DNA of 64,000 nucleotides from Rhodanobacter sp. A1T4 (GTDB lineage Bacteria; Pseudomonadota; Gammaproteobacteria; Xanthomonadales; Rhodanobacteraceae), in contig NZ_JACHCP010000006.1 of the NCBI RefSeq assembly GCF_014207185.1, forward strand, positions 186,001 to 250,000, in the 5' to 3' direction. Every line of letters starts with the position of its first letter. Within the stretch, counting starts at the first letter, position 1. The notes under the pieces were generated by a model. The model was not told where the DNA came from. It saw only the letters and a list, made by a program, of their open reading frames with translations, and ran no database searches. The position numbers and the translations under genes are program-made. This document shows, piece by piece, positions 68-23,959 of this stretch.

Positions 68-191
68 ATGGCACGCCAACCATGACTTGATCTTCCAGGC
101 ATTCCGCAACACGTTGTTCAACGCGGCAACAATCGTCTGCCGTGTTTTCTCGACGACGAGGATAGAAGCCGATATCTGACGTTGCACGGCT
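68..191 (+). pseudogene. RAYT (REP-associated tyrosine transposase) N-terminal remnant A
   Basis: Translating from the ATG at 68 gives MARQP, an in-frame stop at codon 6, then the RAYT-like stretches PGIPQHVVQRGNNRLPCF and LDDEDRSRYL before a second stop at about 190. The motif HVVQRGNNR is the conserved N-terminal signature of Y1-type REP-associated transposases. The catalytic HUH motif and tyrosine would lie further downstream and are absent. The same N-terminus recurs at 16041 and 17915. The rest of bases 1-318 holds no gene I can support. Confidence 0.75.
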
Positions 192-318
192 GATGCAGAA
201 ACTTGGCGACAGTATGTCGGACAGTTCAATACACGCCATCGACGCACAGGCACTTTGTGGGAAGGTCGTTATAGAGTCGGTCTGGCCAGTGTTGTCAGGA
301 GCGCACGGAGGCGCCTCG

Positions 319-14646: not shown

Positions 14647-15810
14647 TTAATATTGCGTATTCAAATACCCGATCTTGGTAGTCACCGGCGCGAAGACACC
14701 GGCCTCCGTGAACCAAAGCAAGTTCGTCCTCTTGTCCAGTGCGATGTTGTAGTAGCCACTATTGGGCGAAGGAATCGTGTATTCGGTAAATCGAACCTCA
14801 AATGGGTCGAGGCGGCCGAGCAATCCTGTGTCTTCCTCAAACCAGACGCGCCCCTGGCGATCCACGCGCATGTCCTCCGCATCAGCGTTGGCCGTGGGGA
14901 TGGGATATTCGATCCATCCCTGCGTCATGGCTGGTCGGACGGTATGGAAGCTGGGAGCCACCGGCGTGCTCGTACTTGGCGTGCGTTCCGCCATGGTGCG
15001 TGATACCGATACGACCTGATTGCCGGCCCTGAGCGTATTGGGTACGACAACGGCATCGCTGTGAGGGGCTGCAAACGGGATGAGTAGCGCCAAGGCATTG
15101 GCGTAATACTCCGATACCCACACCGTGCCATTGGCATTGGCCACCACGCCAGAGGGCGTGCCGCCAAGCGTCGGCACCATGTAGGTGCTGATCACATTCG
15201 TCGATGGATTGAGGCGGCGAACCTTGTTCGTACCCGCCGCGCCGGCGCCATCGAAGTTGCGTTCCACGAACCAGGCGTTGCCCAAGGGATCGAGGCTCAA
15301 CTGCTCCATGTTGTCGTCGGCGTGCTCCAGCGTCACTGACCATTCGGTAACAACGCCACGCGGAGAGAGCCGGCCGATACCTGCGGTTTCGGTAAACCAT
15401 TTGCTGCCGTCTGAAGCGATCTGGATAAAGAACGGCGACGCCCCGGAGGGAATCGCATACTCATCGATCTTCCCGGTATCCGGGGCCAGATGCCCGATGG
15501 CATGCGTCGCGCTATCGGTAAACCAGATGCCATCTTCACCCGCCTTGAGGATGAAAGGCTGGCCGCTGTTGGGTATGGGAAATTCGGACGACGTGCCATC
15601 CGGATGCAGGACAGCGATTTTCCCTGCGCTGGTCTCGGCGTACCACACATCGCCATTGCCAGCGACGTCGACACCCTGCGGAGAGCTGGAGAGGGAAGGC
15701 GTTGCGAATTCACCGATCGTGGCCTTGGCGGTCGACGCGTGCGCCGACATGCCGAGGAGAGTCGTGCTCACGATAGCCTGTGCGGCTACGTACAGGATGC
15801 GTTTCATCAT
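14647..15810 (-). CDS. Secreted Vgb-like (virginiamycin B lyase family) beta-propeller
   Basis: 387 residues with a signal peptide (MMKRILYVAAQAIVSTTLLG, cleavage near AHA). The mature protein is built of repeated blades of about 40 residues with recurring W-(F/Y)-(T/A/V)-E/D motifs (DVWYAETSAGKIAVLHPDGT, GIWFTDSATHAIG, SKWFTETAGIGRL, NAWFVERNFDG, RVWFEEDTGLLGRL, LLWFTEAG), as in streptogramin lyase-type six- or seven-bladed propellers. Exported members of the family are mostly of unknown substrate, so lyase activity should not be assumed. Confidence 0.88.
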   Translation of the reverse strand: MMKRILYVAAQAIVSTTLLGMSAHASTAKATIGEFATPSLSSSPQGVDVAGNGDVWYAETSAGKIAVLHPDGTSSEFPIPNSGQPFILKAGEDGIWFTDSATHAIGHLAPDTGKIDEYAIPSGASPFFIQIASDGSKWFTETAGIGRLSPRGVVTEWSVTLEHADDNMEQLSLDPLGNAWFVERNFDGAGAAGTNKVRRLNPSTNVISTYMVPTLGGTPSGVVANANGTVWVSEYYANALALLIPFAAPHSDAVVVPNTLRAGNQVVSVSRTMAERTPSTSTPVAPSFHTVRPAMTQGWIEYPIPTANADAEDMRVDRQGRVWFEEDTGLLGRLDPFEVRFTEYTIPSPNSGYYNIALDKRTNLLWFTEAGVFAPVTTKIGYLNTQY

Positions 15811-15937
15811 GTAGCTCCTTGTGATTTTACGGATGTGATAACGATGCGAGCGGGGTGATGGCTCCGACGAATTATCGTGGAAAAGTATGAGTACACAGGT
15901 GACGAAGTGCCAGAAATAACGGTGTTACGGAGAAAAC

Positions 15938-16116
15938 GTATCAGGGACAGTTTCTGGCAACAGGATGGCTCCTGGGATAAGGCGGATACGCGGCTTGCAT
16001 TGATCGCGATGCACATGGTTCGTGAGCGATGCTATCGCGCATGGCCCGACCTCCACGCCACGATATCGCAGGCATTCCTCAGCACGTGGTGCAGCGGAGC
16101 AGCAATCGGCTGCTGC
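15938..16116 (+). pseudogene. RAYT element remnant B
   Basis: From GTATCAGGGACAGTTT at 15938 to about 16116 the sequence is closely similar to 17812-17992, including the ATG at 16041 and the RAYT start MARPPRHDIAGIPQHVVQRS followed by SNRLL. The similarity then stops abruptly, and no right-end inverted repeat or catalytic region is present. The rest of 15811-16300 contains no gene. Confidence 0.75.
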
Positions 16117-16300: not shown

Positions 16301-17695
16301 TCACCTATTGCGATCGGCCCCATTTGTTGTGCCGCTTCCAAGGACGAAGGTGGTTACCGAATAAGGAGGCAGGCTATACGTAAACGTCCCGTCGGTAATT
16401 GCAACGTTGGTTGCGATTTGGGCCGGCAGCCCATCTCCCGTGGTCTGCCACGCATTCATGGTCCCTGAGCCATAGCCAGTCAGGTTAACGGTACCCGTCT
16501 CTGTATTGTTTGGGTCTTTGTTAATTACCACGATATTTTTCGGGTTATTTGATGCGAATACTTCCAGGGTGTTGTTCTGCACAACATTGGAACCCTGCAC
16601 ATTAACAGTGGTATCCCCGGTAACACTCGTCAGTACCATGTTCGTCCCGAAATGCTGGAAAAGGGCGCCTCCGGTAAACATGTAGTAAGAGTAATATAGC
16701 GGCATCGGTGTATCGTTCTGGCTGACAACTCCCATAAGTCCGCCCGAACTATCACCATATTCCATGGAAACACCACCCGCCTTGACGATATTGCCAATAA
16801 CACTGGCGCCCCATATCGCATTAAACGGCTGGCCTTGCGCCGGATCAGACCCCCAAGTGAGATTCCATTCGCCGCATTCTATGGGCAACCCTGTATCTCC
16901 TTGCAGCTTGGCTATTTCTGCCTGATACGACACGGTGCCATATTGCAGCACATCGCCATCGCTATCGCTGCCTCCGCCGTTCAATTCCTGCTGCAGCTGG
17001 CTCGCGGACATATCGGTGTCGCCGCCGTTGCCGTATTGATGGTAGTCAAGGAAATCGGGGCCTCCGGCAGTGCTCTTGGTATTGGCGAAGTATCCCGTCA
17101 TGGTGCCTTCGTCATACCAACCCCACGCAGGGCCGCCTATATACAGCGTAAAGCCACCCGACGCGCTGCGCATTCCGGGAGCAAAGGCTATGAAATTAGA
17201 GCCGCTGGAATCGTTCGCGTTGGTCTCATTGCCGATGATGTAATACTGCACGGGCTTTGAAAGGCCGTGAGCGGCATAATTCGCCGTATAACGGCTTACC
17301 ATGGCCTGTGCATCAGCTGCACTGCCTCCGCTGTCGGTGCCGTTGTCGTCCTCACCAATCGTATGCAGCCTTATGACCGGCTTCGCTCCAGTGCTGTCGA
17401 TGGCCTGTACCCATGGATCACCGGGGCCACTTGTACTCCCGGCGCCTAACTGGGGATCGCTGCCGTTCTGTAAGTCAATGCGCATTGCATCCAAATGCAA
17501 CGCAGCTATCAAGTTGTATACAGTCTGATCATGCACGATGTCATGTGGTGAACCATATTCGGTAGAGTCCATGCTGAACGCCCGAGGATTGACCGTCCCT
17601 ATATTCTTAGTAAAATCCACATTAATAGTGCCCGCATAAGCGTTTCCTGCAAGTAATGAAATAAGGCTGATACACGATAAGGAACGCGATTTCAT
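16301..17695 (-). CDS. Secreted clan GH-A glycoside hydrolase, unassigned family
   Basis: About 464 residues from the ATG at 17695, preceded by GGAGG six bases upstream. The signal peptide ends near residue 21 (AYA). A TIM-barrel glycosidase of clan GH-A is indicated by the acid/base motif YYIIGNE (Glu157) and a late strand IECGEWNLTW (Glu273/Glu276 as nucleophile candidates), with a C-terminal beta-sandwich (about 370-455) ending in YSVTTFVLG. GH39, GH51 and GH79 are the nearest layouts I know, but I cannot place it. Base composition is lower in GC than its neighbours, and RAYT remnants flank it on both sides, hinting at acquisition. Confidence 0.82.
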   Translation of the reverse strand: MKSRSLSCISLISLLAGNAYAGTINVDFTKNIGTVNPRAFSMDSTEYGSPHDIVHDQTVYNLIAALHLDAMRIDLQNGSDPQLGAGSTSGPGDPWVQAIDSTGAKPVIRLHTIGEDDNGTDSGGSAADAQAMVSRYTANYAAHGLSKPVQYYIIGNETNANDSSGSNFIAFAPGMRSASGGFTLYIGGPAWGWYDEGTMTGYFANTKSTAGGPDFLDYHQYGNGGDTDMSASQLQQELNGGGSDSDGDVLQYGTVSYQAEIAKLQGDTGLPIECGEWNLTWGSDPAQGQPFNAIWGASVIGNIVKAGGVSMEYGDSSGGLMGVVSQNDTPMPLYYSYYMFTGGALFQHFGTNMVLTSVTGDTTVNVQGSNVVQNNTLEVFASNNPKNIVVINKDPNNTETGTVNLTGYGSGTMNAWQTTGDGLPAQIATNVAITDGTFTYSLPPYSVTTFVLGSGTTNGADRNR

Positions 17696-17810
17696 GCAAG
17701 CCTCCAATGTAAATTTTATTTATATAAAAGTATAAAATCCTTGGCTATTTTCCACGGTGCCAGCTAACCTTTTGTGACATGGCTATTGTTTTTAACAAAT
17801 AGCGAGAAAA

Positions 17811-18093
17811 GGTGTCGGGGACAGTTTCTGATACCAGGATGGCTCCTGAGATAAGGCGGACACGCGGCTTGTACTGATCGCGGTGCATATCGTTCGTGAG
17901 CGATGCTATCGCGCATGGCCCGACCTCCACGCCACGATATCGCAAGTATTCCTCCGCACGTGGTGCAGCGGGGTAGCAACCGGTTGCCGTGCTTTCTGGA
18001 CGACGAAGATCGCCAGCGTTACTTGCAGCGCCAGGCGCTATTGCGTGACGGATGTCGGCTGCACGCCTATGCGTTCAAATTGTCCCTGACACC
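17811..18093 (+). mobile_element. Non-autonomous RAYT-derived element C with inverted ends
   Basis: A 283-bp unit bounded by GGTGTCGGGGACAGTTT (17811-17827) and its imperfect inverse AAATTGTCCCTGACACC (18077-18093; 15 of 17 match). Inside, an ATG at 17915 opens MARPPRHDIASIPPHVVQRG then SNRLPCFLDDEDRQRYLQRQ and GCRLHAYAFKL, the N-terminal third of a RAYT; the reading frame then crosses the right inverted repeat, so the HUH and catalytic tyrosine regions are missing. It looks like an internal deletion derivative of a REP-flanked RAYT gene. It lies between the two glycosidase genes. Confidence 0.78.
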
Positions 18094-18183
18094 TTTTTGC
18101 TCGTCACCCCTATTTTACTATTGTAGTATTAATAAAATTCAAGCTTGGCGATGGCCTCGCCGGCGCTATGGGAGAGATCCACG

Positions 18184-19749
18184 ATGCAGCAGAAGTTTGC
18201 GCGCGGCTGGCGCCGTGTCTGCGTGGCGACGGCGATGCTGATGATGACGGGGCTGGCGCAAGCGGGTGTCGTATCGGTGCATGGCACACTGCATGTCGAT
18301 GAACCAGGCGCACTGGTCTCGCGCAATATTTTCGGCCAGTTTTCCGAGCATCTGGGCAACGGTATCTATGATGGTTTGTGGGTTGGCCCGGATTCGGGTA
18401 TCCCTAACGCCGACGGGTATCGCAACGATGTGATCGCGGCGCTGAATGCCCTGCATGTACCCAATGTGCGCTGGCCCGGCGGTTGTTTTGCGGATGAATA
18501 CCATTGGCGCGATGGCATTGGGCCACGCGACAAGCGACCGACGCGGGTGAATACTCATTGGGGTGGTGTGGCGGAGTCGAATGCTTTCGGCACGCAGGAA
18601 TTCATGAACTTCATCGAGCGCATCGGCAGTCAGGCTTATGTAGCCGGCAACGTGGGTGACGCCGCGCCTGAAGAAATGGCGCAGTGGGTCGAGTACATGA
18701 CGGCTACGGGCAAATCGTCGCTGGCTCGCGAACGCGCCGCCAATGGTCACGAGAAGCCCTGGGTGGTTCCCTATTTCGGTGTGGGCAACGAGTTGTGGGG
18801 CTGTGGCGGGAACATGCGTGCGGAATATGCCGCGGATCTGTTTCGACGCTATCAGACCTTCGTGAAGGTGCCCGCGGGGCAAACCATCATGAGGATTGCG
18901 CCCGGTGCCAACAACGACGACGTTCACTGGACCGAAGTGATGATGCGCGAAGCAGCCAAGTTCATGGATGGACTGAGCCTGCATTACTACACCGTGCCGG
19001 GTGGCTGGCCGCCGCTGGCTTCATCGACCGATTTTGGTGACGAGGGCTGGATTGAAACCCTGTCGCTGGCACTGCACATGGATGACCTGATCAAGCATCA
19101 CAGTGCGGTGATGGACAAGTACGATCCGGACAAGAAAGTGGCCCTGGTGGTCGACGAGTGGGGAACCTGGTATGCGCCGCTGCCAGGTACCAATCCCGGG
19201 TTTTTGCGGCAGCAGAACACCTTGCGTGATGCCCTGGTGGCGTCGTTGACGCTCGACATCTTCACTCATCATGCCGATCGCGTGCGGATGGCCAATATCG
19301 CGCAGATGATCAACGTGCTACAGGCGATGATCCTCACCGACGGCGCTCGCATGCTGCTCACGCCGACGTATCACGTGTTTGCGATGTATCGGCCTTATCA
19401 GGATGCTACCGAGTTGCCGTTGCAGCTCGACACGCCCAGCTACACGCTCGATGGATACGCTGTACCGGAGGTACATGGTTCGGCGGTGCGGGCAAAGGAC
19501 GGCCATGTCTATGTCGCGCTGACCAATCTGGACCCCGAGCGCGACGCGAAAGTTGAGATAACGGTGGATGGCCTGAAGGCGGTGGGAGTAGGTGGGCAGA
19601 TTCTGACCGCGCCAAAGATCACTTCACACAATACGTTTGATCAACCCAATGCAGTGAAGCCGGTGTCGTTCAACGATGCGCATGTTCAGGGCGACAAGCT
19701 GAGCGTGGTATTGCCGGCCAAGTCGATCGTGATGCTGCAGCTGCGTTGA
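18184..19749 (+). CDS. Secreted GH51 alpha-L-arabinofuranosidase
   Basis: About 521 residues from the ATG at 18184, with GGGAGAG upstream. The signal peptide ends near residue 27 (AQA). GH51 hallmarks are present: NIFGQFSEHLG, VRWPGGCFADEYHW, the acid/base motif FGVGNELWGCGG (Glu203) and the nucleophile motif VVDEWGTWY (Glu325), followed by a C-terminal beta-sandwich. It removes arabinofuranosyl side chains from hemicellulose or pectin and, with a signal peptide, acts outside the cytoplasm. A strong terminator follows at 19789. With the clan GH-A enzyme it forms a small plant-polysaccharide locus. Confidence 0.96.
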   Translation: MQQKFARGWRRVCVATAMLMMTGLAQAGVVSVHGTLHVDEPGALVSRNIFGQFSEHLGNGIYDGLWVGPDSGIPNADGYRNDVIAALNALHVPNVRWPGGCFADEYHWRDGIGPRDKRPTRVNTHWGGVAESNAFGTQEFMNFIERIGSQAYVAGNVGDAAPEEMAQWVEYMTATGKSSLARERAANGHEKPWVVPYFGVGNELWGCGGNMRAEYAADLFRRYQTFVKVPAGQTIMRIAPGANNDDVHWTEVMMREAAKFMDGLSLHYYTVPGGWPPLASSTDFGDEGWIETLSLALHMDDLIKHHSAVMDKYDPDKKVALVVDEWGTWYAPLPGTNPGFLRQQNTLRDALVASLTLDIFTHHADRVRMANIAQMINVLQAMILTDGARMLLTPTYHVFAMYRPYQDATELPLQLDTPSYTLDGYAVPEVHGSAVRAKDGHVYVALTNLDPERDAKVEITVDGLKAVGVGGQILTAPKITSHNTFDQPNAVKPVSFNDAHVQGDKLSVVLPAKSIVMLQLR

Positions 19750-22955: not shown

Positions 22956-23711
22956 TCAGAACGGGTGCTGCCGGTAAAACTGCTCGAGCTGTTGATAGAC
23001 GTCCGGCAAATGCTCTTGGAGTGTTGCTGGTGTCTCGAAAAATTGTTCGCTGGCCACCGCAAAAAACTCGGCCGGGCTTTCGAGCGCGTACGGGTCAATC
23101 GGCAACTCGCTCCCGTTGCGTTGTTCCTCCTTCAGGCGATCCCACGCGCTCGAGAAGACCTGCGACCACACGCGGCGATCCATGCGCCGATGCAATGGCG
23201 GAAAGCCGTTGGCGTCCCCGTTGAGCATGTCGAGCTTGTGCGCCATTTCGTGGATGATCACGTTGCGCCCCGGTTTCTTGCCGGCATCCAGCACATTTGC
23301 CCACGACAGGATCACCGGGCCACGCCCCCATGCCTCACCAGCCAATAGGGTGTCGCTTTGATGCACCACCCCAGCGGCATCGATTTTTGGGCGACGTGGA
23401 ATGAACGCGTCCGGGTACACGATGATGCTGCGCCAGCCGTCGTACCAATCGATGCCAAGTTTCAGGATGGGTACGCAAGCATGCGTCGCGAGCAAGACAA
23501 GATCGGCGTCGTCAAGCTGCAAACCCTTGGTTGGCTCCAGCGCCTTGCTCTCCAGGAACAACGTTGCCAGCACGCGCAGCGTCGCCTGATCGGAAGCGCC
23601 CAGCCTGCGCGCCGGGGCACAGCGCTGCAGCGCCTCTTGCCAGAGCGATTCGGCGATCGGGTGCCGAGCGACGATGCGCCGTATGCGCCAGTTTCTGATT
23701 TTGTTGAACAT
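22956..23711 (-). CDS. mtfA: MtfA-family zinc-dependent peptidase
   Basis: About 251 residues. The zinc-binding motif HEMAHKLD (HExxH) lies at about residue 148, with a downstream Glu in ESPAEFFAVASEQFFE acting as third ligand, as in E. coli MtfA. Aromatic and arginine-rich N-terminal sequence (MFNKIRNWRIRRI) is typical. MtfA interacts with the glucose regulator Mlc in enterobacteria; whether that holds here is unknown, and no Mlc gene is nearby. ATG at 23711 preferred over an in-frame GTG six bases upstream. Confidence 0.93.
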   Translation of the reverse strand: MFNKIRNWRIRRIVARHPIAESLWQEALQRCAPARRLGASDQATLRVLATLFLESKALEPTKGLQLDDADLVLLATHACVPILKLGIDWYDGWRSIIVYPDAFIPRRPKIDAAGVVHQSDTLLAGEAWGRGPVILSWANVLDAGKKPGRNVIIHEMAHKLDMLNGDANGFPPLHRRMDRRVWSQVFSSAWDRLKEEQRNGSELPIDPYALESPAEFFAVASEQFFETPATLQEHLPDVYQQLEQFYRQHPF

Positions 23712-23792
23712 GGCCACATGCTGGACGGAGTCGTAGAGTCAAGAGCATCAGGGTCGAAGTGCACTTTCTCAAGCGAGAAAACCTGAGGAAAA

Positions 23793-23858
23793 GGTGTCAG
23801 GGACAATTTTCGACACCGTTTCTCACGCCACCGTGACAATCAAATTGTCCCTGACACC
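23793..23858. repeat. REPIN: perfect 17-bp inverted REP pair
   Basis: GGTGTCAGGGACAATTT (23793-23809) and its exact inverse (23842-23858) enclose a 32-base loop. The arm matches the end repeat of the RAYT element at 17811-18093, so this is a REPIN of the same family. A GTGCACTTTC-family unit lies just before it at 23756-23769. The two families together fill most of the mtfA/CPBP gap. Confidence 0.82.
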
Positions 23859-23959
23859 ATTCTTGTCCGACACCACTCTTCTACCGCGTTGTTGCCAGCC
23901 TGCCTTCGCCAGCGCAAGCGAACATGAGCGGAACTGGCGGGACACCCAGCGCGATGGCC

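Follow-up and report, generated by a model that had tools for sequence, protein, structure and literature searches.

A unit of 291 bp in the genome of Rhodanobacter sp. A1T4, in which the beginning of a RAYT gene is enclosed by inverted repeats, raises the question of whether such a structure is a small mobile element or the remains of a gene that was resident where the unit now lies. The unit is part of a 64,000-nucleotide stretch of DNA (the window, to which all unprefixed coordinates refer), and a first-pass annotation had taken it for a MITE made from a domestic RAYT, without transposase activity of its own but movable in trans. Our preferred reading, to which we give a probability of about 0.7, is that the unit is a relic of the lineage's resident RAYT (a TIR-flanked, TIRYT-like Y1 transposase gene) that has decayed in place, and not a MITE insertion.

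The unit as described in the first-pass annotation is real (Table 1). The 17-base ends reported there (17811–17827 and 18077–18093, inverted, 15 of 17 bases matching) were confirmed, and the repeat is in fact longer, with 19 of 21 bases matching (90% complementary) between 17807–17827 and 18077–18097; the same end sequence recurs, as had been stated, in the doublet near 23793. With three mismatches allowed at most, the end motif occurs seven times in the window, versus a mean of 0.47 after shuffling, and none of 100 shuffles reaches seven. The N-terminus of a RAYT is indeed present inside the unit, but the "third" of the protein that had been proposed shrinks to about a quarter. Because the RAYT match ends at residue 56, before the HUH motif, both this motif and the catalytic tyrosine are absent, and the predicted lack of transposase function is borne out by the missing catalytic residues. 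Aligned with an 814-bp reference element, the unit retains positions 6–274 followed by 789–814 and lacks the ∼520 bp that lie after codon 56 and before the right repeat's inner edge; a CGTT at the junction can be assigned to either side when the alignment is read by eye. The reading frame of the unit (ORF 17903–18241) passes through the right repeat and leaves the unit, the stop codon of the intact gene being unused. With its inverted terminal repeats and no transposase, the unit has the internal architecture expected of a MITE.

Table 1. Positions of the unit, its relatives and the right-hand marker gene in the window
Feature	Position	Strand	Basis
Third RAYT relic, with an internal gap of its own	68..268	+	Reference positions 108–203, then 330–412
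Second RAYT relic, comprising the 5' part with the left terminal repeat	15933..16113	+	89% identical to the left part of the unit
Left terminal repeat (REP/TIR) of the unit, AAAAGGTGTCGGGGACAGTTT	17807..17827	+	Left end shared by the intact elements of relatives
Leader of the RAYT and remnant of its N-terminal coding part (56 codons, ATG at 17915)	17828..18075	+	81% identity, residues 1–56 of 232
Deletion junction: RAYT 5' part fused to the inner edge of the right repeat	18070..18076	+	Alignment by eye
Right terminal repeat (REP/TIR) of the unit	18077..18097	-	Inverted match to the left end
mtfA (Peptidase_M90), right-hand marker of the RAYT interval in relatives	22956..23717	-	Domain match
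REPIN-like doublet: terminal repeat of the unit as an inverted pair	23789..23861	.	Arms 95% complementary

In related genomes, the parent is found as an element of ∼814 bp with the same ends as the unit. Elements of 814 bp with open frames of 232 aa are present in two Rhodanobacter genomes (G012 and G024), Oleiagrimonas soli (G056) has an 814-bp element with a 241-aa frame, and in G025 and G026 the elements are full length and the frame is broken. An intact RAYT matching the N-terminal remnant of the unit does exist in relatives, and it is bounded by the same ends, not by different ones. The ATG of the parent lies ∼108 bp from the left end, and the right terminal repeat contains the stop codon (TGA in the G012 frame; L066 12732–12734), so that the end sequence is also coding. 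The G012 protein matches PF01797 (Y1_Tnp domain) at 50.9 bits, with a cut-off of 23, and NCBIfam NF047646 (REP_Tyr_transpos) at 63.3 bits, below the cut-off of 80; inspection by eye locates NHVHLL and SRYIELNP in its frame, which we take to be the HUH motif and the catalytic tyrosine. No solved structure related by sequence to the RAYT was found at E 0.01. On one or both sides of 10 of the 18 named RAYT loci there is a GTGTCAGGGACAAT-type repeat that has an inverted partner (in Rhodanobacter, Oleiagrimonas, Luteimonas, Thermomonas, Lysobacter, and one unplaced MAG), and the remaining eight comprise a Dyella locus with a GTGCC form, six loci of the GGGGTCAG or TCAGGTT type, and one with only a weak 10-base match.

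RAYTs are defined by flanking inverted REPs in the cited part of PMC2817692. Passages of PMC3733652 describe, under the name TIRYTs or TIRtrons, RAYT-like genes between long TIRs, and TIR families some of which are moderately abundant and occur also as dimers; TIRtrons are taken up again in a portion of PMC6006769. The parent element resembles these, being a RAYT-like gene with inverted repeats, other than GTAG REPs, at its ends. The same passages of PMC3733652 give a GGGGWSAS motif for the repeats of many, not all, TIRYTs; unlike those, the repeat here (AAAAGGTGTCAGGGACAATTT; GGTGTCAG where the motif is compared) comes near the motif without fitting it, whereas several remoter relatives have GGGGTCAG and do fit (e.g., AACGGGGTCAGG). 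The window copy also differs from a TIRYT in being a deleted relic.

Within its own genome (G000, 5.08 Mb), the unit is present in one full copy; apart from it, DNA matches genome-wide are limited to the relic at 15933–16113 (89%). A MITE would be expected in several copies of the same structure at different sites; the unit has no second full copy, and "no further copies" was one outcome that the first-pass annotation itself had named as speaking against its proposal. The other outcome named there, an intact RAYT with different ends, is not what the relatives show. No intact RAYT was found in G000: a PF01797 search of the genome gave no match (the same search was positive in five of 14 control genomes), and a query with an intact RAYT protein gave seven matches up to E 10, all of them fragments. 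One of these regions of similarity, a C-terminal RAYT-like fragment that is 40% identical (contig C1:573993–574232), lies far from the icmF–mtfA interval discussed below. Mobility of the unit within its own genome was rejected on the basis of the single full copy, and neither the Pfam nor the protein search revealed a RAYT that could act in trans within G000. What stands of the earlier proposal is thus the derivation of the unit from a RAYT by internal deletion, with ends as in intact relatives; the mobility of this copy, including mobility in trans, is not supported. Among the matches, which come from 20 other genomes out of 148 (best five candidates per genome), none showed the junction of the unit. 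When insertion sites were compared, two genomes (G001 and G008) matched only the arabinofuranosidase side of the unit, which makes them uninformative as empty sites, and neither an intact element nor an empty site was found at the exact position of the unit in other strains.

The location of the unit argues for decay in place. The interval between icmF and mtfA spans ∼51 kb in G000 and holds all three RAYT relics of the window, with the doublet just past mtfA. The order icmF(+), RAYT or relic (+), mtfA(-) is found in G000, G003, G009, and G014, and the same relative orientation is seen next to one marker in G025, G026, and G030 (icmF side) and in G038 (mtfA side), such that the side and the relative orientation of the RAYT or relic with respect to icmF and/or mtfA agree in 8 of 11 broad regions (G000 included) that were hand-picked among genomes with RAYT matches. 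The exceptions are G016, in which mtfA is ∼14 kb from the relic on the opposite side, and G024 and G012, in which neither marker occurs within the 27 and 13.7 kb compared and the elements are near contig ends. Three further short regions were picked because mtfA had appeared in them: G037:C96 agrees with the icmF–mtfA arrangement, and in G020:C64 and G010:C59 mtfA is <1 kb from a RAYT piece in a different arrangement. G026 also carries RAYT copies that are more diverged and oppositely oriented. Because the unit sits between icmF and mtfA in the orientation of the RAYT or its relics in most of the relatives examined, we read it as a decayed resident gene.

Six of the eight end motifs found genome-wide with at most one mismatch fall within ∼35 kb around the unit. 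Given that all four end-motif loci are on this contig, their span has P ∼0.0015, and clustering of end motifs tested over six contigs gave P values from 0.16 to <0.001. Local hopping was set aside as the explanation of this clustering, at least part of which is accounted for by the shared icmF–mtfA interval. The two further remnants that had been noticed earlier, broken in different ways, are likewise real, with the extents revised as in Table 1; no right end was seen for the relic at 15933–16113 and no terminal repeats for that at 68–268.

The unit has counterparts of many sizes in other genomes. Elements that keep both ends and have lost part of the interior measure 767 bp in G003, 646 and 379 bp in G037 (the latter with two deletions), 552 bp in G030, 291 bp in G000, 227 bp in G014, 193 bp in G038, and 154 bp in G037:C96, and an element in G024:C23, with a degenerate right end, is probably also interior-deleted; the sizes run from 814 bp down to 141 bp and then to REPIN-like doublets of ∼50–75 bp. 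Reference positions 787–796, where the right terminal repeat has its inner edge, contain the right breakpoint of 7 of 10 deletion junctions (five clear cases and two with degenerate right ends, G024:C23 and G037:C96, read by eye). The left breakpoints of these seven differ, and the remaining three right breakpoints are inside the gene. With uniformly distributed breakpoints, the probability for a 10-base stretch would be ∼8e-10 for at least seven and 3.6e-6 for at least five, values that are to be read in light of a stretch chosen after inspection of the data and of approximate positions. The ten do not include a 390-bp element in G026 (with unrelated filler), an element in G037:C92 cut by the contig end, or the junction of the 141-bp derivative described below, the left breakpoint of which is at the inner side of the left repeat. 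Microhomologies at the junctions are short, as judged by eye. In G003, a nearly complete RAYT sequence is followed, after a gap of ∼47 bp, by the right end. The units in G014 and G038 have a common right flank and different left flanks, and in G034 a degenerate right repeat is found at this right flank with no RAYT sequence before it; these events may therefore not be independent. Some deletion events thus involve rearrangement, and recombination may be involved in the case of G014 and G038. Judged from the aligned sequences, the inner edge of the right repeat is an apparent deletion hot spot in the genus.

Dispersal is seen for another member of the series, a 141-bp derivative in which the left 24 bp of the element are joined to its last ∼117 bp. 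Its junction is common to 13 of 15 places, which are spread over nine genomes and, to judge from their flanks, about nine sites (the 15 places are a selection from the match list; two of them are too degraded, and right-hand truncation affects several of the 13). The copies in G042 and G014 are 94% identical and have flanks that do not match; a search for the empty site of the G042 copy found no other genome that matches both flanks. A 41-base match to the derivative is also present in G016, and the genome of the window gave only end matches (best five candidates per genome). There are hence several copies of the same structure at different sites, and by its sequence the 141-bp derivative, most of which comes from the opposite end of the element, is a dispersed RAYT-derived MITE in Rhodanobacter; it may have been moved by a RAYT in trans. 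In G016, four copies occur within ∼4 kb in one orientation (L308 1038–4958).

PATEs are MITEs from IS200/IS605 elements, i.e., non-autonomous derivatives of an element with a Y1 transposase. Unlike in that case, the parent here is a RAYT, and only the 141-bp derivative is dispersed, the unit of the window being single copy. No earlier description of RAYT-derived internal-deletion units was found among the matches listed from an open-licence collection, although one may exist in print.

Could the unit have been deleted elsewhere and brought to its present site by a RAYT acting in trans, as the dispersed derivative seems to have been? Both of its ends are retained and near consensus, the 141-bp sister has reached about nine sites in nine genomes (13 of 15 places), and a related 5' copy that starts at the element end lies 1.9 kb away, all of which would suit a MITE. 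We nevertheless regard this history as unlikely, given a single full copy, the failure of both searches to find an intact RAYT in this genome, and a location within the interval in which relatives keep their RAYT. An origin as a composite, in which a REP of independent placement adjoins a 5' RAYT fragment and the junction is an insertion or recombination edge instead of a deletion edge, appears to us less probable still. The occurrence of REPs away from RAYT matches, singly or as doublets, and the degenerate REP without RAYT before it in the right flank that G034 shares with G014 speak for such an assembly, but in the mapped short units no RAYT match extends past the right repeat, the ∼47-bp gap to the right end in G003 looks as a deletion would, and the ACGTTC that precedes the repeat in G012 is retained in G003 and G038. 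Finally, the ends are short enough to bring chance similarity or an artefact to mind, an idea whose probability is negligible in view of the shuffling result (0 of 100) and the 81% protein identity over 56 residues.

In the preferred reading of a decayed resident gene, the starting point would be an 814-bp element with a left repeat, an ATG, and a RAYT frame whose stop is in the right repeat. Loss of ∼520 bp downstream of codon 56, as far as the right repeat's inner edge, presumably at the resident location of the gene, would have left the two ends joined by a dead 5' fragment, and the sibling relics would stem from local copying during RAYT activity. Against this reading, the sibling relic (89% identical, 1.9 kb away) begins at the element end, from which it follows that copying as a unit occurred once. 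The unit would now be inert, and it might still be recognized if a matching RAYT were supplied. As the cause of the deletion, breakage or slippage where the right repeat has its inner edge is most likely. If the inverted repeats were paired, slippage across them could set the breakpoints at the foot of the stem, and the edge-clustered deletions may have been made by RAYT cleavage beside the repeat; in the cited part of PMC8266576, the TnpAREP proteins tested cut beside REP hairpins at CT, one of them also at CA, but those REPs are of the GTAG type. A broader scheme is possible but doubtful, namely that a specific process cuts TIR-type RAYT elements at the inner edge of the repeat and joins them to gene-internal sites, a single reaction that would convert the 814-bp gene stepwise into MITEs and then REPIN-like doublets. 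If it were true, Rhodanobacter would show a route from gene to REPIN with the intermediates preserved.

The window copy is an ordinary relic and adds one more to the known TIRtron/RAYT background. The genus is more useful, since it offers graded both-ended intermediates, one of them dispersed, and deletion edges clustered at a single place amenable to cleavage tests; the graded deletion series and the 141-bp family are worth following.

The doublets at the short end of the size range are rare. Exact doublets number at most two per genome and occur in 7 of 45 genomes, end sites with at most one mismatch range from 0 to 19 per genome, and REPs are also found apart from RAYT matches, singly or as doublets; the inner bases of some doublets resemble RAYT ends, a resemblance on which we base no claim that the doublet interiors are RAYT remains. 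The pair at 23790–23861 hence lacks the high copy number of a REPIN, in which two inverted REPs form one replicating unit. An origin of REPINs from RAYT-flanking repeats is offered as a possibility in the cited part of PMC3116915 (Bertels and Rainey, 2011). The doublets here are like the REPINs of those passages in being short pairs of inverted end sequences and unlike them in their low copy number, in a repeat without GTAG, and in intermediates that still have RAYT coding sequence.

Some variant repeats were also observed. In G014 and G025 (L061 ∼6135 and L063 ∼5308), the 5' end of the RAYT is cut at another repeat, AAAAGGGGACGGAGGGAATTAA, which suggests a second TIR element in the icmF–mtfA interval. 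A GGGGTC...GACCCC doublet in G018, degenerate in G021 (L298 and L299), sits where the left flank in common with the unit of G014 ends. Variant end motifs GGTGTCAGGGACGAAT and ATTCGTGTCAGGGACAATT are found near ordinary ones (L066 12698 and 13518; L063 5257).

Two genes near the relics of the window may be mentioned. The product of 14647–15810 is a virginiamycin B lyase family protein by Pfam and scores 116 and 104 bits against NCBIfam resistance-enzyme cut-offs of 600. The gene at 16301–17707 (minus strand), without a Pfam match, probably encodes a secreted protein and has a RAYT relic on either side, the two in direct orientation; the stretch 16900–17806, which covers the 5' part of the gene and sequence upstream, was matched over at most ∼44 bp, in one of 59 other genomes (best five candidates each). 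With a left repeat before this gene and a right repeat after it, the segment 15933–18097 resembles a composite element.
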